This document shows, piece by piece, positions 10,812 to 27,332 of a stretch of 46,455 bases of DNA. Made by a program: the position numbers and the translations under genes. The stretch is from Candidatus Neomicrothrix sp. (GTDB lineage: Bacteria; Actinomycetota; Acidimicrobiia; Acidimicrobiales; Aldehydirespiratoraceae), in contig JAFMKU010000013.1 in NCBI GenBank assembly GCA_017852795.1, forward strand, positions 1 to 46,455. Reading direction: 5' to 3'. The notes beneath the pieces are model-generated. The model had not been told where the DNA came from. It was given only the letters and a program-made list of their open reading frames with translations, and did not search any database. Numbering within the stretch: position 1 is the stretch's first letter; each line of letters starts with the position of its first letter.

Positions 10812-10853
10812 CTACGGTTGTTAGTATCTGGAGTCCACGGTTCGGGAGGGTCG

Positions 10854-12005
10854 ATGCGACGAGTTTTGATCATGGGAGTAGCGCTAGTGCTTCTGGCAAG
10901 CGCCTGCGGTAGCGACGGCGACACGCAAACCGCCGGGGAGCCAGCTTCAAACGCGGACACGGCTAGCGCCACGGACACAACAACCACATCAGCGCCTACG
11001 ACCATCCCCCCGACCACCACCGAAGCATCGGAACCAACGCCCAGTTGGGTACAGATCAACGCCGAGGGTTGCGTGTGCTCCGACGGTTCGGACTACACCT
11101 ACTGGCTTCGCGAAGCCGACCCGACCCGAGTCATGTTGTTCTTCGACGGAGGCGGCGCCTGCTTCTCTGCTGAAACCTGCAACCCTGATGATCCGGCATA
11201 CTCAACCCAAGCCGACGACAACATGACAGAGGCCGACACGGGAGTGTTCGACCTCGCGAACCCCGCCAACCCGGTAGCCAACTGGTCGATGATCTTCATG
11301 CCGTACTGCACCGGCGACGTCCACCTCGGCACCAACACCGAAGTGGATTACGGCGATGGGATTGTCGTGAACCACCTCGGGTATACCAATGCCGAAAACG
11401 GTCTCGATGCGCTGATCTCTAGGTTCCCGAACGCTGAACAGATTCTCGTTACCGGGTCGAGTGCCGGTGGTGTCCCTACTCCCCTGTTTGCCGGCCTCGT
11501 TGCCGACGCCTTTCCCGACGCTGATGTGATGGGCTTGCCCGACGGAAGTGGTGGCTACCCCAGCAACCCGGGACTCAACGCGTTGATCGGCAACCTGTGG
11601 GGAACCTCCGGAGCGATCCCCGACTGGACCTCTACCGCAGACGTCACCGCCGCTGAGTTCGGAATCCCCGACCTGTACGGCCTCGCAGCAACCGAATTCC
11701 CTGCCATCCGCTGGGCTCGATTCGACCATGCCTACGACGGAACCCAAGCCACCTTTTCTGCACTCGCAGGGTTAGCTGACTCAACGGTAAAGGCCGTGTT
11801 GGACATCAACGAAGCTCTGGCTGAAAGCAGCGGTATCGACCTTGACGTCTATGTCGCTCCCGGCACCGAACACACGATCCTGGCTCGACCAGAAATGTAT
11901 GACCTTGAGGTCAATGGGACCCGGTTCGTTGACTGGTTCAGCGCATTCCTCGCCGGAGACGACATTTCCGACGTGGTCTGTGTCGACTGCGAACAACCCG
12001 GCTAA
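10854..12005 (+). CDS. Pectinacetylesterase/Notum-like lipoprotein (copy 1)
   Basis: A 383-residue predicted lipoprotein. The N-terminal hydrophobic stretch ends in the lipobox LLASAC (Cys18), followed by a Thr/Pro-rich linker to about residue 62. The rest matches the pectinacetylesterase family, an alpha/beta-hydrolase group that removes ester-linked acyl groups: FFDGGGACF (oxyanion region), YCTGDVHLG, the nucleophile Ser203 in GSSAGG, DGSGGYPSN and a C-terminal APGTEHTIL with the catalytic His. I chose the ATG at 10854 because GGGAGGG lies just upstream and the signal peptide then starts correctly. A second, closely similar gene lies at 13113, with a PASTA gene between them. The substrate could be an O-acylated glycan or lipid; pectin itself is unlikely to be the only target. 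Confidence 0.85.
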   Translation: MRRVLIMGVALVLLASACGSDGDTQTAGEPASNADTASATDTTTTSAPTTIPPTTTEASEPTPSWVQINAEGCVCSDGSDYTYWLREADPTRVMLFFDGGGACFSAETCNPDDPAYSTQADDNMTEADTGVFDLANPANPVANWSMIFMPYCTGDVHLGTNTEVDYGDGIVVNHLGYTNAENGLDALISRFPNAEQILVTGSSAGGVPTPLFAGLVADAFPDADVMGLPDGSGGYPSNPGLNALIGNLWGTSGAIPDWTSTADVTAAEFGIPDLYGLAATEFPAIRWARFDHAYDGTQATFSALAGLADSTVKAVLDINEALAESSGIDLDVYVAPGTEHTILARPEMYDLEVNGTRFVDWFSAFLAGDDISDVVCVDCEQPG

Positions 12006-12057: not shown

Positions 12058-12083
12058 AAAAAGTTTTTGGGAAAAGTGTCCAC
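12058..12083 (+). promoter_or_regulatory. ECF-type promoter-like element upstream of PASTA gene 1
   Basis: The element is AAAAAGTTTTT, a 7-nt spacer, then GTGTCCAC (12076-12083). It matches, ungapped from the AA(C/G)TTTT box onward, the element upstream of the paralogous PASTA gene at 16788-16814. ECF sigma factors typically read an AAC-type -35 and a GTC-type -10 box. A 13-nt match, TCGTTGCTCATGG at 12095-12107, lies the same 12 nt downstream in both leaders. The start codon is 72 nt downstream, so the mRNA has a long leader. Confidence 0.6.
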
Positions 12084-12155
12084 TACCTGATTCCTCGTTG
12101 CTCATGGCCCCTGAACGGCACCAACCAGTGGTGCCACAACCAAAGGAACAGTGCC

Positions 12156-12956
12156 ATGAACACCCAGATCAACAACCAAACCGACCCGAACCTCACCACC
12201 ACCCACGAACCGATTCCGACGGTTGAGTCAAACACCGTGTTCACGGCTCCGGTCGCCGGACCAGTTTCGGCTCCCACCCGCAACCGGTTCCGACTCATGG
12301 CCGCATCGGGCCTGGCCGGGCTCTTCGTGATCGGTGGTGCAATCGGACTTGCCACTACCGGCGGCTCCGCCACCACTTCCGAAACTGACATTGCCCTTAC
12401 CCAAGCCGCTGACAGTGTTGACAGCGAACTGGTGGGTGCCGAAGTCCTCGTCGCCGACCCCGTCTCCCCCGCCGGAAACTCCACCGATAGCAACGCTGCT
12501 GTGGTCCCAGCTGACGGTTCCCCGACCGAAGAAGCCCCCGCCGAGGAAGCTCCGGTTGCGGAAGCCCCCGCTGAGGAAGCTCCCACCGAAGAAGCCCCGG
12601 TTGAAGAAACCCCGGCCGACACCACCGGCGACAATCCGTTCGACTTCGGTTTCGGTATCGAACTCCCCACCGGAAGCCTGTTTGACAACCTCACCGATCC
12701 TGAACTCTCAAACAATCTGCCCGATTTCGAGCTGGTTCAGGGTCTCGTGTTCATGCCCGACGTCATCAACATGAACCGCACCCAAGCCGCAATCCTGCTC
12801 TCCGACCTCGGCCTGAATGTCACTATCCGAGAGGTGATCGTGTTCAGCGGCGAAAACAACACGGTGCGAAGCGCCAGCATCGAAGCCGGAACGCTTGTGA
12901 CTGAAGGCCAGGCGGTCACCCTTGAAGTGATCAAGAACATGAACCCGTTTGACTGA
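12156..12956 (+). CDS. Single-pass membrane protein with C-terminal PASTA domain (copy 1)
   Basis: A 266-residue protein with an N-terminal cytoplasmic tail (1-46, ending in the basic TRNRFR), one membrane helix (about 47-66), an acidic Pro/Ala/Glu repeat region of EEAP units (122-152), a Phe/Gly/Asp-rich spacer and one PASTA domain (about 199-260) with MPDVINMNRTQA and SGENNTVRSA. PASTA domains of penicillin-binding proteins and Ser/Thr kinases contact peptidoglycan, so the protein probably displays one on the outer face on an extended stalk. The start is supported by AAGGA 8-9 nt upstream and by the MNTQ-x-NN start shared with the paralog at 16887. There is no kinase or penicillin-binding domain. 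It lies between two paralogous esterase genes. Confidence 0.85.
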   Translation: MNTQINNQTDPNLTTTHEPIPTVESNTVFTAPVAGPVSAPTRNRFRLMAASGLAGLFVIGGAIGLATTGGSATTSETDIALTQAADSVDSELVGAEVLVADPVSPAGNSTDSNAAVVPADGSPTEEAPAEEAPVAEAPAEEAPTEEAPVEETPADTTGDNPFDFGFGIELPTGSLFDNLTDPELSNNLPDFELVQGLVFMPDVINMNRTQAAILLSDLGLNVTIREVIVFSGENNTVRSASIEAGTLVTEGQAVTLEVIKNMNPFD

Positions 12957-13012
12957 GTCACCAACATCGTGATCCCCGGCTGTTCCTGCAGCCAGAAGGT
13001 CACCGCTCCACC

Positions 13013-13043
13013 AGAGGCCGGCAGCTACCAGCTGCCGGCCTCT
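13013..13043 (+). terminator. Perfect 14-bp hairpin after PASTA gene 1
   Basis: AGAGGCCGGCAGCT and its exact inverse flank a 3-nt loop, 57 bp after the PASTA stop codon. The following tract (GACCTTTCC) is only weakly T-rich, so termination may be partial. It separates the PASTA gene from the next esterase gene. Confidence 0.65.
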
Positions 13044-13112
13044 GACCTTTCCGACCAGTATCGAATCGCTCAATCAACTAGTTTCTTGCCACCAGGCGGA
13101 AGGAACAGATGC

Positions 13113-14246
13113 ATGCACCGACTCGCGGCAATTGGGATTATTGGCGTACTGCTGGCCTCGGCCTGCGGGGGTACGAACACCGAGGTTCGGGGCGAGGTGC
13201 CGATCAGCACGTCGTCGACAACCACCAGCGACGCTCCGGCCCCCACCGCCTCGAGCTCTACCGATCCCCTCTCAGCCGATAGAAGCTGGGAAAAGTTCCT
13301 CCCCGAGGACTGCAAATGCGCCGACGGATCCGACTACGCCTACTGGCTCGTTCAAGGTGACCCCCAAAGAGTCTTGGTGTACCTCGATTCCGGTGGTGCT
13401 TGTTTTTCGGCGGAAACCTGCGGCCCTGATGACCCGACCTACAGCCGATCGATCCTCGAAAGATCGGACCTGCCGGACAAAGGACTCTTCCAACTAGACA
13501 ACCCGGAGAACCCGGTTGCTGACTGGTCAGTGGTCTACATCCCGTATTGCACCGGCGATGTCCACGTCGGCACTCGTCGGGGGGTCGACTACGGCGACGG
13601 GGTCGTCATGGATCACACCGGTTTCCTCAATGCTCAGAACGGACTCGAAACCTTGGCCAGCAGGTTCCCAGACGCCGAACAAATCCTCGTCGCCGGATCC
13701 AGCGCCGGTGCAGTTGCCACCCCATTGTTCGCAGGCCTCGTTGCCGACGACTTCCCCAATGCCGATGTCATGTCGCTTCCCGACGGTGGAGGAGGCTTTC
13801 CTAGCAATCCAATCCTGAACGAGCAGATCGGCAACCTGTGGGGAACAGCCGCCGTCATACCCGATTGGGAGTCGACAGCAGGATTGACGGTTGCCGAGTT
13901 TGGCATTCCCGACGTCGTCGCGCTGGCCGCGGCCAACCATCCCAACATTCGCTGGGCCCGCTACGACAACGCCTTCGACGGGGTACAAGCCCGCTACCTG
14001 CGACTTGCCGGGTTCCCGGACCAGCCCATCAAGGAAGTGCTTGACAACAACGAGGCCTTGGCCGAAAACCAGGGGGTGGACTACGACGTCTATGTCGCCC
14101 CCGGCGTCGATCACGTCATCTTGGACAGTGAGAACATGTACGGGATAACGGTCAACGAGGTGCGTTTCGTTGACTGGCTCGCGGCGTTCGTCGCTGGAGA
14201 AGAAATCGACGACGTGGTCTGCATCGACTGCGAACCACCGAACTAA
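13113..14246 (+). CDS. Pectinacetylesterase/Notum-like lipoprotein (copy 2)
   Basis: A 377-residue paralog of the gene at 10854, alignable along its length. It has a lipobox LLASAC (Cys18), a Ser/Thr/Pro-rich linker to about residue 55, YCTGDVHVG, the nucleophile Ser197 in GSSAGA, DGGGGFPSN and a C-terminal APGVDHVIL. The oxyanion segment is LDSGGACF here against FFDGGGACF in copy 1, and the residue after GSSAG is Ala rather than Gly, so activity or specificity may differ. I start it at 13113 because GGAAGGA lies 9 nt upstream and the ATG leads straight into the lipoprotein signal; the open frame begins earlier but crosses a hairpin. The function is inferred from family motifs only. Confidence 0.85.
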   Translation: MHRLAAIGIIGVLLASACGGTNTEVRGEVPISTSSTTTSDAPAPTASSSTDPLSADRSWEKFLPEDCKCADGSDYAYWLVQGDPQRVLVYLDSGGACFSAETCGPDDPTYSRSILERSDLPDKGLFQLDNPENPVADWSVVYIPYCTGDVHVGTRRGVDYGDGVVMDHTGFLNAQNGLETLASRFPDAEQILVAGSSAGAVATPLFAGLVADDFPNADVMSLPDGGGGFPSNPILNEQIGNLWGTAAVIPDWESTAGLTVAEFGIPDVVALAAANHPNIRWARYDNAFDGVQARYLRLAGFPDQPIKEVLDNNEALAENQGVDYDVYVAPGVDHVILDSENMYGITVNEVRFVDWLAAFVAGEEIDDVVCIDCEPPN

Positions 14247-15016: not shown

Positions 15017-16648
15017 TCAACTCCGCTCCTGACAGCTCTTCACGAAAAAGTCTTCGTTCTGCAGGTTGTCCGGTGGGCTCCGGAATGTCTTGTTTCCCGC
15101 CTCATCGGTGACGGTCAAGGTCATGATCAGCCGTTCCCGACCCAACACGGTTCGTGCCGGGATCCGAAGCGACCCGTTCCATAACGTGTCACCTGGGGCT
15201 CGGGTCAGCTCGATGGTTCCTTCGGGTTTAGCAACCCCAGGACGGTCCAGTTGCCAACGAAGCAACACCGACTGAACAGCGACATTGTCCGATGCTTCCA
15301 CCATCACCGGTGCATCATCCTCACCGCAGCCCCCGAGCTCCCACATGTCGATCCCTGGGACTTTCACGTTGAAACTGAGAACCACGGGCGGCTCCGAGTC
15401 CACAACCGCGGGCATCGTGGTCGTGGTGCTCGTGGTGGTTGTCGTGGTGCTCGTGGTGCTCGTTGACGTCGTCGTACTCGTACTGGTGGACGTCGTCGTG
15501 ATGGTGCTGGTGGACGTGGATGCCGGTGCGGTAGTGCTCGATACTGCCGTGGGGTCAGAAACTCCGGGCACGAACGGATCAGGATCGGTGTCGGTTCGAG
15601 TTTCGGTCGGGGCCAGCCCATCATCGGCGACCGCAACCGTCGGTGAAGTGTCGGTCGCTGATGGTTCCTGACGGGTGCCATCCCCGACCGATACCGCCCA
15701 TCCAGCCACGACAACCACCGCGGCACCGACGCCAATCGCCAAACGAGTCGCCCAGGTGGCCAATATCCCCCGCCGGACCGGGTCGGCCACCGGGAAACCA
15801 TCGGGACGCCACGAGACCAGCTCGACCGACGGGGCCACGCCCGGACCGGCCAACAACTCGGCAACGCTGCTGCGGAGGGCAGCGGGAACCGGCTGCATGG
15901 GCATCGCTGATGCCAGCCCCCCAGGATCGAGCAGCGCCTTGCGGCGGCGAGTACACGAATCACAGTCGTCGATATGGCGGCTCACCCGCTTACGAAGCAC
16001 CGGAGTAACAACCGGTTCGCCACTACCCAACAGCGCCTGAAGTTCCTCGCACTCGCGTCGGCCAAACCGCATCACCAGCAGTACCCCAAGCGACCGTTCA
16101 ACCCGACTGCGGACCCGCTGGAGCAACTTGTAGGCATTCTGGGTCGACACCCCAAGCACATCAGCGAGTTCGTCGCCGTCAAGACCGTGGCGAAGGTGTA
16201 GCTGCAAAATCTCTTGATCTCGCTCGTTCAACCCAGCCTGAGCTTGAGCAATGAGGTCACGAAGTTCGTCGCGCACCACGGACTGGGTCATGTCGACCTC
16301 AAATCCTGGGTCGAGCACGCTGACCTCGGAAGACTTTGCGCCTCCTGCGGTGACCGTGTCTCCGACCAGCACCGTTCGCTTCTGGCCTCGGATCCGGGCC
16401 CGGCACTGGTTTCGGGCGATGCTGTACAACCAAGACTTGAGTCGGTCCGGCTCCCGCAGCTGGTGCAACTTCTGCGTGGCGGTAAGGAAGGTGTCCTGGA
16501 ATGCGTCCGCTGCTTCGTCCTCGCTGTGCAGGATGGAACGACAGAGGCTGTAGACGGGATCGGCGTAGCGCTCGTAGATCGCCGCAAACGCCTGACGGTC
16601 GCCGCGCAGGTGCTGCGCAATGAGTTCTGCGTCGCTTGGCTTAGCCAC
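15017..16648 (-). CDS. ECF sigma factor fused to ZAS-like zinc finger, membrane helix and external domain
   Basis: A 543-residue fusion. Residues 20-90 are sigma region 2 (AIYERYADPVYSLC, DAFQDTFLTA, LKSWLYSIARN) and about 128-190 are region 4 (LNERDQEILQLHL, LADVLGVSTQNAYKLLQRVRSRV). Next come Cys200 and a His225-x3-Cys229-x2-Cys232 motif, the zinc-binding signature of ZAS anti-sigma domains. A membrane helix follows at about 297-321, then a Ser/Thr-only linker (about 370-411) and an external C-terminal domain of about 130 residues with a Cys pair (441, 539) and a beta-sandwich look. Sigma and anti-sigma are normally separate proteins; here one chain would tether the sigma to the membrane. 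Release by proteolysis or a conformational change is inference. The nearby PASTA genes carry candidate target promoters. Confidence 0.9.
   Translation of the reverse strand: MAKPSDAELIAQHLRGDRQAFAAIYERYADPVYSLCRSILHSEDEAADAFQDTFLTATQKLHQLREPDRLKSWLYSIARNQCRARIRGQKRTVLVGDTVTAGGAKSSEVSVLDPGFEVDMTQSVVRDELRDLIAQAQAGLNERDQEILQLHLRHGLDGDELADVLGVSTQNAYKLLQRVRSRVERSLGVLLVMRFGRRECEELQALLGSGEPVVTPVLRKRVSRHIDDCDSCTRRRKALLDPGGLASAMPMQPVPAALRSSVAELLAGPGVAPSVELVSWRPDGFPVADPVRRGILATWATRLAIGVGAAVVVVAGWAVSVGDGTRQEPSATDTSPTVAVADDGLAPTETRTDTDPDPFVPGVSDPTAVSSTTAPASTSTSTITTTSTSTSTTTSTSTTSTTTTTTSTTTTMPAVVDSEPPVVLSFNVKVPGIDMWELGGCGEDDAPVMVEASDNVAVQSVLLRWQLDRPGVAKPEGTIELTRAPGDTLWNGSLRIPARTVLGRERLIMTLTVTDEAGNKTFRSPPDNLQNEDFFVKSCQERS
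15415..15540. repeat. Low-complexity GTGGTCGT/GCTCGTGGT tract coding a Ser/Thr linker
   Basis: The plus strand here is almost only G, T and C in short GTGGT and GTCGT units. It is the coding sequence, read on the minus strand, of the Thr/Ser linker between the membrane helix and the external domain of the sigma fusion. Such tracts change length easily by slippage. Confidence 0.75.
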
Positions 16649-16714
16649 GAAAGTTGATCATAGTGAGCGGTTGCTTGTCGCTTCATGTCCTACCTGATGC
16701 ACGACCAGGTCTCC

Positions 16715-16737
16715 GTGGACAGAAAGGCGAAGATTCC
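16715..16737 (-). promoter_or_regulatory. Possible autoregulatory ECF-type promoter of the sigma fusion gene
   Basis: Read on the minus strand, GGAAT is followed after 11 nt by TGTCCAC, 67 bp before the sigma gene's ATG. The TGTCCAC box equals the -10 box upstream of both PASTA genes, and GGAAT resembles the classical ECF -35 GGAAC. The -35 box differs from the AAAAA(C/G)TTTT of the other two, so this is a weaker match. Confidence 0.35.
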
Positions 16738-16787: not shown

Positions 16788-16814
16788 AAAAAACTTTTCG
16801 AGATTTGTGTCCAC
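16788..16814 (+). promoter_or_regulatory. ECF-type promoter-like element upstream of PASTA gene 2
   Basis: AAAAAACTTTT is followed by an 8-nt spacer and GTGTCCAC (16807-16814). It aligns without gaps to the element at 12058-12083. The shared downstream block TCGTTGCTCATGG (16826-16838) keeps the same 12-nt distance. The AAC and GTC cores are those expected of an ECF sigma promoter, and the only sigma gene seen in the window starts 140 bp away on the other strand. Confidence 0.6.
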
Positions 16815-16886
16815 GGTCGAAGAGTTCGTTGCTCATGGTGTTCGAACAGCACCCAACGGGGGTGCGAAACCGAGAGGACAATGACA

Positions 16887-17657
16887 ATGAACACCCAAAG
16901 CAACAACCCAGCCGCCAACACCACCCGACGGATCAAGACCTCCCATGCTGCCGTTGCTGGCCTTGCCGCACTCTTCGCCCTTGGCGGAGTGATCGGTCTT
17001 GCCACAAGCGGCTCCTCGGAGGCAGCGGCCGATCCGGCACAGATCGAAGAGTCGATCGTCGACGACGCCAGCGAAACACTCGTCACCGAGTCCACGTCCA
17101 ACGCCGTGCCCGCAACGGTTACCGCCGCGAACAACGAATCGGCAGCGGCCAAGGAAACCCCCGCCGAAGACGCCCCGGCCGATGAACCAGCACCGACTGA
17201 AGCAGCTGCCGCCGAAGACGCCCCGGCCGATGAGCCAGCACCGGCTGAAGCAGCTCCCGCCGACGACGCACCCGCCGAAGACGCACCCGCTGAAGACGCA
17301 CCCGCCGATGACGCACCCGCCGATGGCGGCGATGCAGGCTTCGACTTTGGTCTCGGTCTCGATTTCGAACTCGGACCAAACCTGGGCTTCGGTGGGTTCC
17401 CCAACCCATACGAGATTCCTGAACTCAACTTCGACGATCTCATGCTGGTGTTGAGCGTCCCTGACGTGATCGGACAGCACTACTCCGAAGCCGAATCCAC
17501 GTTGACCAACCTGGGGTTCGTCGTTGAACGGGTCGATGTCTTTCGGTCCAGCGGTGAGACCGGTTCGGTTGTCGATAGCGACGCTGCCGCTGGTTCACTC
17601 CGGCGAATTGGTTCCACCATCACTCTGACGGTGGTGATCGTCCTCCCTGGCCTGTAA
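16887..17657 (+). CDS. Single-pass membrane protein with C-terminal PASTA domain (copy 2)
   Basis: A 256-residue paralog of the gene at 12156: a short basic cytoplasmic tail (1-20), a membrane helix (about 21-40), a long acidic EDAPADEPAP repeat stalk (92-147), a Gly/Phe/Asp spacer and one PASTA domain (about 188-252) with VPDVIGQHYSEAE and SGETGSVVDSD. I start it at the second of two close ATGs: GAGAGGA lies 8 nt before it but only 2 nt before the first, and MNTQ-x-NN then matches the paralog. The frame is open further upstream through the promoter element, which is therefore not coding. It is divergent from the sigma fusion gene. It is probably anchored in the membrane with PASTA facing the wall; its ligand is unknown. 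Confidence 0.85.
   Translation: MNTQSNNPAANTTRRIKTSHAAVAGLAALFALGGVIGLATSGSSEAAADPAQIEESIVDDASETLVTESTSNAVPATVTAANNESAAAKETPAEDAPADEPAPTEAAAAEDAPADEPAPAEAAPADDAPAEDAPAEDAPADDAPADGGDAGFDFGLGLDFELGPNLGFGGFPNPYEIPELNFDDLMLVLSVPDVIGQHYSEAESTLTNLGFVVERVDVFRSSGETGSVVDSDAAAGSLRRIGSTITLTVVIVLPGL
17166..17261 (+). repeat. 48-bp tandem duplication in the PASTA 2 stalk
   Basis: Two adjacent 48-bp copies (17166-17213 and 17214-17261) differ at about three positions and encode EDAPADEPAPxEAAxA units. They are followed by shorter GACGCACCCGC-type units to about 17327. This is a likely recent in-frame expansion of the stalk. Confidence 0.8.
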
Positions 17658-19475: not shown

Positions 19476-20453
19476 ATGGAGCCAATGACCGAACCCCGTT
19501 ACGACTGGTCGGTAGATGAGGTCCTGGCGATTATCGAACGCCCCTTCCATGACCTTCTCTCCGACGCCAATGCCTGCCATCGCGAACGTTTCAACCCCCA
19601 TGAGATCGAAGGGGCGAAATTGCTTTCGATTAAAACCGGGGCCTGTCCAGAAGATTGCGCGTACTGCCCGCAGTCCGTCCACCACAACAACGACCTCAAA
19701 CCAGAACCGTTGATGGACCGGGACGAAATCCTGCGGGCCGCGCAACAGGCTCATGACGAAGGAGCGACCCGGTTCTGTATGGGTGCTGCTTGGCGTTCGC
19801 CAACCGACCGGCAGGTGGGCATCGTCGCTGAGTCGGTAACCGCAGTGGCCGAACTTGGGATGGAAACCTGCGTGACGCTGGGAATGCTCACTCCAACCCA
19901 AGCGCAAACGCTGGCCGACGCGGGACTCGATTTCTACAACCACAACCTCGACACCTCCCCCGATTTCTACGGTGAGATCATCACCACCCGGACCTATGAG
20001 GACCGGTTGGACACCTTGCAGGCCTGCCGAGACGCGGGCCTGAGCCTCTGCGCCGGCGGAATTGTGGGAATGGGCGAAAGCCGTCGGCAGCGAGCCGGGC
20101 TACTCCAACAACTAGCGACGCTCAACCCTCATCCGGAAAGCGTCCCGATCAACTTGTTGATTCAAGTCCCGGGCACCCCACTGGATGGGCTACCCGAGTT
20201 CGAACCGCTGGAGTTGGTTCGGACCATCGCGGCAGCCCGCCTGGTTATGCCCGGTTCGGTGGTGCGCCTCAGCGCAGGACGGTCATCAATGTCTGAAGAA
20301 CTCCATGCCCTTTGCCTGCACGCCGGGGCAAGCAGCATCTTCCTTGGTGATCGCCTGCTGACCGCCGACAACAACGGTGACGAGTCCGATCAGGCGATCC
20401 TCGCCCAACTCGACACGGCACTCAAGACGCTCGACCCGGCGGCAACGAAGTGA
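19476..20453 (+). CDS. bioB: Biotin synthase
   Basis: A 325-residue radical SAM enzyme that inserts sulfur into dethiobiotin to make biotin. The radical SAM cluster motif is Cys57-x3-Cys61-x2-Cys64 in [13 protein letters not shown]. Other family marks are [59 protein letters not shown] and [10 protein letters not shown], and the length is typical. The other biotin genes (bioF, bioA, bioD) are not in the window. The TGA stop overlaps the GTG start of the heliorhodopsin gene (GTGA), so the two are read from one mRNA. A TACGAT hexamer lies 9 nt before the ATG and there is no clear Shine-Dalgarno sequence. Confidence 0.97.
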
Positions 20454-21247
20454 CCTCCGCGAACCCCACCTCGGCTGCCGTTTCCAACGAGCAGATCGGC
20501 GGGCTGCGCCGGTTCAACTTGGTGATGGGGGTGTTGCATCTGTTGTCAGGGGCCGCCATGTGGCTGATCGGCAACGACTTTCACCTACAGGTCAGTTCGT
20601 TCACCCTTAACGGACCACCGGGCACACCGCTGAGCGACGGTGAGTTTTTCGAAGCGCTGTCGTTCCCGCTGGCGTTCTGGACCGCCATGTTCCTGTTTCT
20701 CTCAGCCGCGGCGCATCTCACCATGGCCACCTTCGGTTTCTCGTTCTACCGTTCCGAACTGATCGCGGGCCGTAACCGATTGCGCTGGTTTGAGTACTCG
20801 CTTTCGGCCACCTTGATGATCGTGCTCATCGGCGCGGTTTCGGGCGTCACCGACGCGGCGGCGCTCATTGCGATCGCCGGTGCCAACGTTTCCATGATCC
20901 TGTTCGGTTGGCTGATGGAGATGGCAAACCGACCCGGTCAACCGGTCTGGTGGACACCGTTCTGGTTTGGGTGCGTGGCCGGGATTGTTCCCTGGTTGGC
21001 GATCGGAACCTCGGTGGCGTTGAGCGTTTCCGAAGCTGACGACGGTGGCCCACCCGGGTTCGTGTACGGGATCTTGGTGACCATTTTCGTGATGTTCAAC
21101 TGCTTCGCGATCAACCAGTGGCTTCAGTATCGGGGCCGGGGTCGCTGGGCGGAGTACGCGTTCGGGGAACGGGTGTACATCTGGTTGAGCTTGATCGCCA
21201 AGAGCCTTCTGGCCTGGCAGATCTTCGCCAATACCTTGATCGAATAG
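20450..21247 (+). CDS. Heliorhodopsin
   Basis: A 265-residue seven-helix retinal protein of the heliorhodopsin family, which sits in the membrane with its N-terminus inside, opposite to type-1 rhodopsins. Diagnostic segments are [16 protein letters not shown] with the counterion Glu115, and [15 protein letters not shown] with the retinal-binding Lys251. His30 and His89 match the two conserved histidines of the prototype 48C12 (H23, H80; E107 and K241 there) with nearly constant offsets. The start is GTG overlapping the bioB stop, so translation is probably coupled to biotin synthase. A FabH-like gene follows 45 bp later. The function of heliorhodopsins is unsettled: signalling and enzyme-regulating roles are proposed, and most do not pump. 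Confidence 0.95.
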
Positions 21248-23874: not shown

Positions 23875-23979
23875 ATGGTCGGGTTTCGGATGGGATTGGT
23901 AAGTCACAGTGCTGCTCACGCCCTTCCTAGCCAGCGCTGTTCACCCTGGGAACCCAGCGAGTATCGTGATCCGAAGTGA
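23875..23979 (+). CDS. 34-residue ORF, possible leader peptide of the subtilase gene
   Basis: A short frame starting MVGFRMGLVSH with a near-perfect Shine-Dalgarno AAGGAGT placed 6 nt before its ATG. It ends in GTGA, where the TGA stop overlaps the GTG start of the subtilase. The subtilase start has no good ribosome-binding site of its own, so translation of the protease may depend on this ORF. The peptide has no recognisable domain. It may be a coupling leader or a real small protein; alternatively the Shine-Dalgarno match is fortuitous. Confidence 0.5.
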   Translation: MVGFRMGLVSHSAAHALPSQRCSPWEPSEYRDPK

Positions 23980-26900
23980 ATGCATCGCGTCGGGTTCTGG
24001 CACTCATAGCGACGGCCGCACTCGCCGCTTCGATCACGGTGTCAACCGGCGCGGCCCAAGCCAACACCAAAGCCGGCACCAACACCGCGACTGAGACCGG
24101 GCCCCCAACTGATAGCAAAGTGCTTGACCTTCCGATCACGGCCAGCGGTTCGCTCGCCGGTTCCGTCGCTCAAAATCTGCTGGCCCGCCAACCGAACCTG
24201 GTCAGAAACCCGTACTCGTTGTTGATCGAATTCGCTGCGGGTGCCGATCCGGAATCGGTCCTCGGGCTCCTTAAGGAGACAAACACCCGCCTGGTGCAGC
24301 AGTTCAGCGAAACCAATGTGTACCAACTGGAAACCACCGGCGACCTTGGAACGATCCGCTCACTGCTGGCCCGCGACGATCAGGTGCTCTGGGTCGACTT
24401 TGACAACATCGTGAGTGCGACCGCAACCAAGGAACCCAGCCCGGCCCCCGACGTTTCCATCCAACTATCCAATGACTCGATGGCGAGCCAGTTGTGGGGG
24501 CTTTTCGGGAGCAACGGGATCAGGGCAGAAGCGGCATGGGCGGCAACGGCTTCGGTTCAGGACGTAGTCATCGCGGTTATCGACAGCGGGGTCATGATCG
24601 AGCACCCAGATCTCGCCGCCAACATCTGGACGAATCCCGGAGAGATTGCAGGCAACGGGATCGACGACGACAACAACGGCTTCGTTGACGACCTTCACGG
24701 TTGGGATTTCGTCGATGGCGATAACCAACCAAACGATCTCGCGGGCCACGGGACCCATGTTGCTGGCACGATTGCGGCGGTTCGCGACAACGGGATCGGT
24801 GTGGCCGGGGTCGCCCATAACGCCAAGATCATGCCGATCCGGTTCCTTGATGCCAACGGGCAAGGCTTCGTTTCTGATGCCCTCAGCGGACTTGACTACG
24901 CGCTGCGTAACGGAGCAAAAGTCTCGAACAACTCGTGGGGTGGAGGGGCGCCATCCTCGGCGTTCTCGGCGACCCTCGACCGGGCCAACTCCGAAGGGCA
25001 TCTGTTTGTGGCCTCAGCCGGAAACGAATCGACCGACATCGACGATTCCCCGAGTTTTCCGGCCTCTTACCCGCAATCCAACATCTTGTCGGTCGCGTCA
25101 CTCACCTCAGGAGGGCAGCTTTCATCGTTTTCCAACTTCGGAACGACCTCGGTTGATATCGCTGCGCCCGGCTCGTCCATTCGTTCAACCTATTCATTGA
25201 CCGACCCTTCTATCTCAGGGATCGAAATCGAAAACGGTGCGGCCTACATTTCCCTAAATGGGACGTCAATGGCGGCTCCACACGTCTCCGGAATTGCCAG
25301 TCTGCTCTACGGACTTGACCCGACGCTTACCCCGCAGCAAGTAATCGAGTTGATCATTGACGGTGGGCGAACCCTCTCTACATTGAATTCGCTGCGTTGG
25401 AGCAAGACCGTTGACGCAGAAAAATCCATTGCCTTGTTGAACACGGTTCCACCTTCCATTTCCATCAGTGGTGCAAGTAACGGAGACGAACTGTTCCTTG
25501 GAGAGTCGGTAACGCTCACCGCTACCGCCAGCAGCTCGCTCGGAGCCAACTTGTCCAACTCGGTTACTTGGCGAACACCCAACGGTGTCGTCGCCCACAC
25601 CGGTTCCTCATTCACCTTCACCCCCACTTCGATCGGTTCGAATACGGTGATCGCCTCAATCGTCGAAGCTAACGGCCGGTCGGCGACCACCAGCGTCACG
25701 CTTAGCGTCTCCGAGATGCGCTTCCGGGTCCTTTCTCCCACCAACCCAGTGCCGTTGGTTGTGGGAGACAACCTGACCGCCACTTGGGCCTGGCCCGGCC
25801 AATCGAACCAAACCGGTGAAGTCGCGATCGAATCCATCTACCGCTATGAGGTGGAACCGAACAGTTCCGCCGGTGCGATCGTTGACAATCGTTCGACCTC
25901 GGTTGCCCTCAACGTTGGCGAGTCGTTTTTGGTCGGCATCGTAAGCGTCGGGCTACGACTCAGCCACTCCTACGTTGGAGACTTGACAATCTCGCTGACC
26001 AGCCCGTCGGGGGAACGAGTCAACCTTTATCAAGAAGATGGCGGAAGCGGGAACAACTTTGGTTCGGGGGACCGTAGCTGTGACGGAGAGCTCACCATCT
26101 TCACTGAAGCCGCCGATGACTTCGTCTCTAACCTGTCGGCACCCTACCTCGGGCCGGTTCGGGCGTCTGAATCTCTCACCGCAATGGAGAACACATCCGC
26201 CAACGGCCAATGGGTGTTGACCGTCACCGATAATGCTGTAGAAGATACGGGAACGATTCATTGCGTGGAACTTGACCTAACTAACGCATCTAGCCGCAAA
26301 ATCATCGGTACCGGCGTTCCTCTGGTCGACGAGTCGTTCACGATCACGCATACCACCGCCCTCAACAACACCCTTGCCCCCGAAAGCCGGCTGGTATTGA
26401 GCGCTCAAGGATTCCCGAAAGTTGCCAGCTTGGGCACGCTCCTCGATGCCACCAAATTGGTTCCCACTCCCCCTCGACAAGTGGTGACCTCCCCCAATGG
26501 CACCCCAAACCAGCTGCGAGTGAGTTGGATTCCGCCTCTGTCGCGCGGTGGCGGTCCGGTTACCGGGTTCCAGGTGCGCGAAGGCGACAGCGTCGTTTGC
26601 CAAACGACCTCCACCAGTTGCTTTGTCGGCCTCTACGCCAGTGGTTCTGTCCATAGCTTCACCGTCACCGCGTCCAACAGCTTCGGAACCAGCATCCGTT
26701 CAGATACGTCACCACCGGGAGTAGTCCCGACCCTCCGGACGTCGGCGGAGACCGGCGTTGACTGCTACATGCCGCAGATCCACGACTTTCTGGATGTGAG
26801 GGCCGTGCTGCGAGTGACCAACGACGTTGGCTGTATCGCTCAGCTGGGGATCACCACCGGAACCTCCCCCACCGCCTTCAGCCCCAACGATGCGGTGCTA

Positions 26901-27332
26901 CGAGAACAGATGGCGGCTTTCCTAGCCCGACTCAACACCAAGATGATCGGGGATGGGTGTAGCGAAACGTATCCCTTTACTGACGTTTCAAGCAGTTCGT
27001 ACGCCGCCAAGTCGATCGGTTGCCTCAGCCAGCTTCAGGTGACCAGAGGCACCACGCCGACCACCTTCGCTCCCAAATCGGTGGTGACTCGCGAACAGAT
27101 GGCTGCGTTCCTGGCCCGCTATTACCAAGCCATTACCGCAACATCGTGCACTGGCAGCCACCCGTTCACTGATATCGGTCCAGCATCGTATGCCTACACA
27201 TCGGTTGGGTGCATCTACGAGTTGGGGATCACCACCGGAACCTCCCCCACCACCTTCTCCCCCAAAGACCCGGTAACCCGCGAGCAGATGGCCTCGTTCC
27301 TGGCTCGAATTTACCGAGCCCTCACCGCCTGA
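23976..27332 (+). CDS. Secreted subtilisin-like protease with P domain, Fn3 and SLH repeats
   Basis: A 1118-residue exported S8 serine protease. It has a Sec signal peptide (about 1-30, ending AAQA), an I9-like propeptide region (about 78-146), and the catalytic domain with Asp203 (IAVIDSGV), His258 (AGHGTHVAG), oxyanion Asn350 (SAGNES) and Ser431 (NGTSMAAPHVSG). It then has an Ig-like segment, a proprotein-convertase P domain (about 640-770, HSYVGDLTISLTSPSG), a fibronectin III domain (about 830-918), and three SLH-like repeats (about 928-1118) with TREQMA-FLAR. The SLH repeats should hold it to the cell wall. The start is GTG, overlapping the stop of a 34-residue ORF. Its substrates are unknown. 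Confidence 0.93.
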   Translation: MNASRRVLALIATAALAASITVSTGAAQANTKAGTNTATETGPPTDSKVLDLPITASGSLAGSVAQNLLARQPNLVRNPYSLLIEFAAGADPESVLGLLKETNTRLVQQFSETNVYQLETTGDLGTIRSLLARDDQVLWVDFDNIVSATATKEPSPAPDVSIQLSNDSMASQLWGLFGSNGIRAEAAWAATASVQDVVIAVIDSGVMIEHPDLAANIWTNPGEIAGNGIDDDNNGFVDDLHGWDFVDGDNQPNDLAGHGTHVAGTIAAVRDNGIGVAGVAHNAKIMPIRFLDANGQGFVSDALSGLDYALRNGAKVSNNSWGGGAPSSAFSATLDRANSEGHLFVASAGNESTDIDDSPSFPASYPQSNILSVASLTSGGQLSSFSNFGTTSVDIAAPGSSIRSTYSLTDPSISGIEIENGAAYISLNGTSMAAPHVSGIASLLYGLDPTLTPQQVIELIIDGGRTLSTLNSLRWSKTVDAEKSIALLNTVPPSISISGASNGDELFLGESVTLTATASSSLGANLSNSVTWRTPNGVVAHTGSSFTFTPTSIGSNTVIASIVEANGRSATTSVTLSVSEMRFRVLSPTNPVPLVVGDNLTATWAWPGQSNQTGEVAIESIYRYEVEPNSSAGAIVDNRSTSVALNVGESFLVGIVSVGLRLSHSYVGDLTISLTSPSGERVNLYQEDGGSGNNFGSGDRSCDGELTIFTEAADDFVSNLSAPYLGPVRASESLTAMENTSANGQWVLTVTDNAVEDTGTIHCVELDLTNASSRKIIGTGVPLVDESFTITHTTALNNTLAPESRLVLSAQGFPKVASLGTLLDATKLVPTPPRQVVTSPNGTPNQLRVSWIPPLSRGGGPVTGFQVREGDSVVCQTTSTSCFVGLYASGSVHSFTVTASNSFGTSIRSDTSPPGVVPTLRTSAETGVDCYMPQIHDFLDVRAVLRVTNDVGCIAQLGITTGTSPTAFSPNDAVLREQMAAFLARLNTKMIGDGCSETYPFTDVSSSSYAAKSIGCLSQLQVTRGTTPTTFAPKSVVTREQMAAFLARYYQAITATSCTGSHPFTDIGPASYAYTSVGCIYELGITTGTSPTTFSPKDPVTREQMASFLARIYRALTA

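Follow-up and report, generated by a model that had tools for sequence, protein, structure and literature searches.

A predicted membrane-tethered ECF sigma factor with a fused class I zinc anti-sigma domain and an Ig-like outer domain in Candidatus Neomicrothrix

Sigma factors fused to their inhibitors

Fusions of an ECF sigma factor to a zinc finger and one or two transmembrane helices have been described in actinobacteria as groups ECF48, ECF52 and ECF53 (PMC8999054, PMC5826349). Many actinobacteria are predicted to encode fused ECF/anti-sigma proteins; among the actinobacterial groups, SCO4117 (ECF52) was the only one found to be characterized in the literature searched, and neither its signal nor a direct promoter has been established. 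For fusions of this type, SCO4117 being the example, release of the sigma by proteolysis has been proposed (PMC5826349, PMC8999054). In IutY (ECF243) of Pseudomonas putida, a sigma factor is likewise fused to a membrane-bound anti-sigma, and regulated proteolysis by Prc and RseP has been shown (PMC8999054). SigW and RsiW form a comparable pair, but as two separate proteins.

The stretch of DNA analyzed here (46,455 nucleotides of Candidatus Neomicrothrix sp., hereafter “the window”) encodes one such chain on its minus strand, with a C-terminal zinc finger and a transmembrane helix in an actinobacterium, as in the described fused groups. Like SCO4117 and the ECF48 and ECF53 proteins, it joins sigma, zinc finger, transmembrane helix and a long low-complexity outer part. 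The fused architecture is thus not novel in itself, and the initial annotation was right to state that the class has precedents. The differences lie outside the membrane and in the promoter: ECF52 combines a Pro-rich stalk with a carbohydrate-binding module, whereas in the present protein the stalk is Thr-rich and bears an Ig-like domain with two Cys; the motif reported for SCO4117 is CSGYN-17-SRHA, and the one found here is GTGTCCA[CG]-N15/16-[CG]NTC. Membership of ECF52 was considered and rejected, as Pfam returned no match in the outer domain, the stalk is Thr-rich, and the predicted fold is Ig-like in place of a carbohydrate-binding module. IutY differs in serving Gram-negative iron/siderophore cell-surface signaling, where an outer-membrane receptor takes part; no partner of that type was seen here. 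The gene and its parts are as follows (all on the minus strand).

15017-16648, minus: fused ECF sigma/anti-sigma/membrane/outer-domain protein, 543 aa, GTG start (open reading frame and related fusions)
16361-16633, minus: sigma region 2 domain, residues 6-96 (Pfam Sigma70_r2, AlphaFold2 helices, VIA)
16064-16291, minus: sigma region 4 domain, residues 120-195 (Pfam Sigma70_r4_2, AlphaFold2)
15845-16063, minus: class I zinc anti-sigma domain, residues 196-268 (invariant ligands, RsiW/ChrR profile match, AlphaFold2 helices)
15791-15811, minus: juxtamembrane WRxDGFP motif, residues 280-286 (conserved in group A, the closest relatives)
15683-15781, minus: predicted transmembrane helix, residues 290-322 (AlphaFold2 helix, hydropathy)
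15398-15682, minus: predicted Thr/Ser-rich extracellular stalk, residues 323-417 (sequence)
15020-15397, minus: predicted Ig-like outer domain, residues 418-543 (AlphaFold2, conserved C441/C539, VIA)

Domains and predicted structure

Both sigma regions named in the initial annotation were above the Pfam cut-off: Sigma70_r2 was matched at residues 24-92 (E=9e-16) and Sigma70_r4_2 at residues 132-182 (E=3e-6). The ECF model TIGR02937 scored 85.8 bits against a cut-off of 42.9, identifying the chain as an ECF sigma, and NCBIfam applied to the whole chain gave no specific group name. The gene is present in a single copy in its own 2.3-Mb genome, where two further matches were ordinary ECFs.

Behind region 4, the zinc ligands C200, H225, C229 and C232, whose residue numbers the initial annotation had given exactly, are invariant across about 80 relatives, and all aligned members, the most distant at 25% identity, keep the motif. 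Their spacing (C-x24/25-H-x3-C-x2-C in this protein and its relatives) is the class I (ASDI/ZAS) signature, and the four residues are predicted to bind zinc. The Pfam family zf-HC2, proposed earlier as a check by hmmscan, fell short of the threshold when the whole chain was searched (E=0.96), reached E=0.015 with the isolated segment, and matched the best relative at E=8.5e-6. A profile of residues 187-271 built from 40 sequences was searched against 177,635 PDB sequences and returned only four matches, all of them anti-sigma factors, at modest E-values (RsiW, the best, 0.0065; ChrR twice, 0.13-0.14; DdvA, 0.77). The RsiW alignment extends through helix 4, the helix that in class I anti-sigmas binds sigma region 2 (PMC7406223). 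Judged from this profile comparison, the cytoplasmic part C-terminal of the sigma is homologous to a class I anti-sigma domain including helix 4.

Residues 1-325 were modeled with AlphaFold2 from 25 sequences (pLDDT 81, pTM 0.61). The model contains sigma2, sigma4, anti-sigma helices at residues 201-207, 216-228, 230-240, 242-248 and 256-267, and one long helix at 290-322; pLDDT is low from about residue 251, making the last anti-sigma helix (helix 4) a low-confidence element. Region 2 gave a VIA Z of 15.1 with region 2 of sigmaE (4lup). Sigma2 and sigma4 superposed jointly on RsiW-bound SigW at 3.8-3.9 A over 157-158 residues and on CnrY-bound CnrH at 2.9 A over 144 residues, compared with 25-28 A for sigma factors in RNA polymerase. 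The two domains are thus placed as in anti-sigma-bound sigmas, and the predicted form is the inhibited one, with the caveat that AlphaFold2 may favor closed sigma forms. The likeness to SigW/RsiW covers the homologous anti-sigma region, helix 4 included, and a predicted closed sigma arrangement, here in one chain that also bears an Ig-like outer domain.

The membrane helix, placed earlier at about residues 297-321, was recovered as the single AlphaFold2 helix at 290-322 with a hydropathy maximum of 2.3 at residues 303-321. Just before it, W280, R281 and D283-P286 are invariant in the group A alignment, and variants of the motif (WRGDGFP, DGFPP, GGFP) occur in many order-level relatives. The stalk had been called Ser/Thr-only, which was slightly overstated: it is nearly so at about residues 378-411, and residues 327-377 also contain P, A, D and V. 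The outer domain, estimated earlier at about 130 residues, comprises 126, and was predicted as a seven-strand Ig-like sandwich (AlphaFold2 pLDDT 77.5). C441 and C539 are invariant in 10 aligned members and are candidates for a disulfide. VIA matches to Ig/PKD-like domains were middling (Z up to 9.3) and named no function.

Relatives, promoter motif and predicted targets

Relatives were found at E<=1e-12 in 22 of 51 genomes of the same family. Wider searches extended this to the order, where 68 of 397 genomes hold a related fusion (E<=1e-40), and to the phylum, with 44 of 396 (E<=1e-25); such recurrence marks the gene as conserved and not a product of chance. The genomes with names are Acidimicrobiia/Acidimicrobiaceae metagenome-assembled genomes and Mycobacterium deserti. 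The members of group A have in common the sigma, the zinc domain, the membrane helix, the Thr-rich stalk and the two-Cys Ig-like outer domain. Across the wider family, the sigma/anti-sigma core is constant and the outer parts vary (Ig-like, BACON/HYDIN-like plus Ig-like, alpha-helical, PASTA, CAP, or Pro-rich tails), being conserved inside clades and exchanged between them.

In a tree of the core, group A formed one clade (99/97), mycobacterial members shared a larger clade with it (80/88), and members that we take to be Streptomyces-like, partly from recognition of their sequences, formed a separate clade (100/99). The mycobacterial relatives within the larger clade are 43% identical to the present protein, and the ECF48 example given in a review is mycobacterial (PMC8999054). 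On sequence evidence, the protein belongs to a large acidimicrobial branch, nearer to the mycobacterial than to the Streptomyces fusions and having exchangeable outer domains, that is apparently undescribed: neither the branch, its outer domain nor its promoter and regulon was found in the literature searched, which was mostly non-subscription and had the ECF classification paper outside it.

Several relatives had features of their own. One fused sigma of the same order (L150, genome G083) carries PASTA repeats outside, a sensor version of the domain found in the predicted targets described below. A sister clade (L016-L021, L025, L026) combines the same sigma/zinc/membrane core with a different outer domain, which is small and helical (FCxxAxEL...C), and lacks the GTGTCCA promoter. 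Two adjacent fused sigma genes having Pro-rich tails only occur divergently in M. deserti (L068) and in tandem in a Mycobacterium-like genome (L239). Several metagenome contigs (L008, L010, L011) stop partway through the fused sigma gene, two within the Thr-codon repeat; since contigs break within the gene, the family is probably under-counted in metagenome assemblies.

The upstream regions of the group A sigma genes are scarcely alignable, yet they have in common GTGTCCA[CG], followed by TC 17-18 bases on. Three sites in the window fit this motif.

16696-16721, minus: putative autoregulatory ECF promoter, TGTCCAC-N15-CATC, before the sigma gene
16804-16834, plus: putative divergent ECF promoter, TTTGTGTCCAC-N16-GCTC
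16881-17657, plus: predicted target PASTA 1, membrane-anchored or secreted, 258 aa, divergent from the sigma gene (Pfam PASTA, 6e-12)
12073-12103, plus: putative ECF promoter, AAAGTGTCCAC-N16-GCTC, before the second PASTA gene
12156-12956, plus: predicted target PASTA paralogue 2, 266 aa, 30% identical to PASTA 1 (Pfam PASTA, 1e-9)

The two plus-strand sites also have A-rich DNA in common (GTGTCCAC and CGTTGCTCATGG). The pattern TGTCCA[CG]-N15/16-[CG]NTC was present in all seven distinct group A upstream regions (shuffle mean 0.02) and in none of 66 upstream regions of other family members. Its presence before all seven distinct closest sigma genes points to autoregulation. Across the 51 genomes, the strict form with TTTGTGTCCAC had 13 matches against 0 in reversed-pattern controls, and a second form, AAAGTGTCCAS, had 15 against 4; a match was found in 10 of the 10 genomes where a group A gene start was found. 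Part of this evidence is circular, as the motif was defined on the sigma genes' own upstream regions. The non-circular, weaker test is the comparison of sites away from the sigma gene, which occurred in 7 of 11 genomes with a group A sigma and in 5 of 40 without (p=0.0015). Matches in G001, G021 and G024 look like chance. TGTCCAC-N13/17-CGTC, in which the -10 element was too strict, had no match in the window, and TGTCCAC alone was not above its chance frequency. A relaxed motif was rejected as a regulon list for being too unspecific (39 matches in the protein's own genome).

These comparisons suggest a new bipartite ECF-type promoter, GTGTCCA[CG]-N15/16-[CG]NTC, before the sigma gene, the PASTA genes and surface-protein genes of relatives, and the fused sigma itself probably reads it. 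That the motif belongs instead to another ECF or to a repressor, the fused sigma having other targets, is unlikely: the genomes do contain other ECFs, and sites occur in G041 and G044, where no group A sigma was found, but the motif stands before all group A sigma genes and before none of the other family members, its two blocks are spaced as in ECF promoters, and it is enriched in genomes with a group A sigma.

The genes behind the sites point to the cell surface: away from the sigma gene, the PASTA, SLH, acidic and lipoprotein products that they encode carry a hydrophobic segment at the N-terminus. A fourth site in the same genome (contig 43) precedes the gene of an acidic low-complexity protein with an N-terminal hydrophobic segment, and other sites precede proteins of the same description. 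The divergent gene bearing the site encodes a secreted SLH-domain protein in G026 and G029, a third SLH protein lies behind a site in G038, and in G039, G040 and G044 the site stands before a lipoprotein gene. At most non-sigma sites, about 50-64 nt separate the -10 element from the gene start that follows it. Homologues of the PASTA proteins were sought in relatives as a regulon test, and none was convincing outside the protein's own genome; the targets thus differ by species and have only their surface location in common.

Other genes in the window were recorded as well. An 1118-aa subtilase (23976-27332, plus) bears a P-domain, fn3 and C-terminal SLH repeats; SLH proteins are also among the predicted targets in relatives. 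Two pectinacetylesterase-like proteins (10818-12005 and 12969-14246, both plus) flank the second PASTA gene. A heliorhodopsin gene (20450-21247, plus; Pfam E=4e-90) adjoins a biotin synthase-like radical SAM gene with a BATS domain (19476-20453).

Mode of action and significance

The reading we prefer, at a probability of roughly 0.68, is that the protein is an autoinhibited, membrane-tethered envelope sensor, likely released by proteolysis, that controls its own gene and surface-protein genes. The initial annotation had proposed a self-inhibited, membrane-tethered sigma with a sensing domain outside; the anti-sigma homology, the inhibited-form model and the failure to find a separate anti-sigma gene, or any conserved neighbor, beside the fused sigma genes of relatives all support it. 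We infer that the class I zinc anti-sigma domain behind region 4 would keep the ECF sigma inactive in cis, with one helix anchoring this module to the inner membrane face and the stalk extending the Ig-like domain into the cell wall or through it. The outer domain would respond to some change, most probably one of the envelope or cell wall, and the sigma module would then be set free, most likely through regulated intramembrane proteolysis in two steps and cytosolic degradation of the anti-sigma part. The freed sigma would then act at GTGTCCA[CG]-N15/16-[CG]NTC promoters. Its own gene would provide positive feedback; further outputs would be the divergent PASTA gene and its paralogue and, in relatives, the secreted SLH, acidic low-complexity and lipoprotein genes.

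Proteolysis is favored by analogy with IutY and with what has been proposed for SCO4117 (PMC8999054, PMC5826349). The genome does encode a site-2 protease, but such proteases are near universal, and its presence says little. Conformational activation of the same protein, in which a pull from the outer domain or the stalk would reach the anti-sigma domain across the membrane and the sigma would work tethered and uncleaved, appears improbable. The invariant juxtamembrane WRxDGFP could relay such a signal, and no cleavage site is identifiable from the sequence; against this, proteolysis substrates typically have a single-pass helix adjoining a disordered stalk. The better-studied precedents, too, favor cleavage, which was shown for IutY and inferred for SCO4117 (PMC8999054). 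A role of the zinc site in cytoplasmic redox or metal sensing, as in RsrA/ChrR, with the outer part serving only as an anchor, is very improbable: the CHCC motif is invariant and ChrR is among the PDB matches, but outer domains kept within clades and swapped between them are what is expected of sensors, the predicted targets are surface proteins, and a zinc motif is present in about half of membrane-bound anti-sigmas, where it may be structural (PMC7406223).

In the present case, comparative sequence analysis by itself supplies a promoter motif and a handful of targets, so that simple reporter constructs could probe both the input (outer domain) and the output (surface proteins). A constant sigma/anti-sigma core with interchangeable outer domains would also lend itself to designing single-protein transmembrane switches. 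More tentatively, the Acidimicrobiia branch of single-chain sigma receptors may be a compact envelope-homeostasis circuit, in which the Ig-like domain would monitor the wall and a very small regulon would consist of the sigma itself and wall-binding PASTA/SLH proteins, several of them encoded adjacently; exchange of the outer domain, including for PASTA in one relative, would rewire the signal and leave the output logic unchanged.
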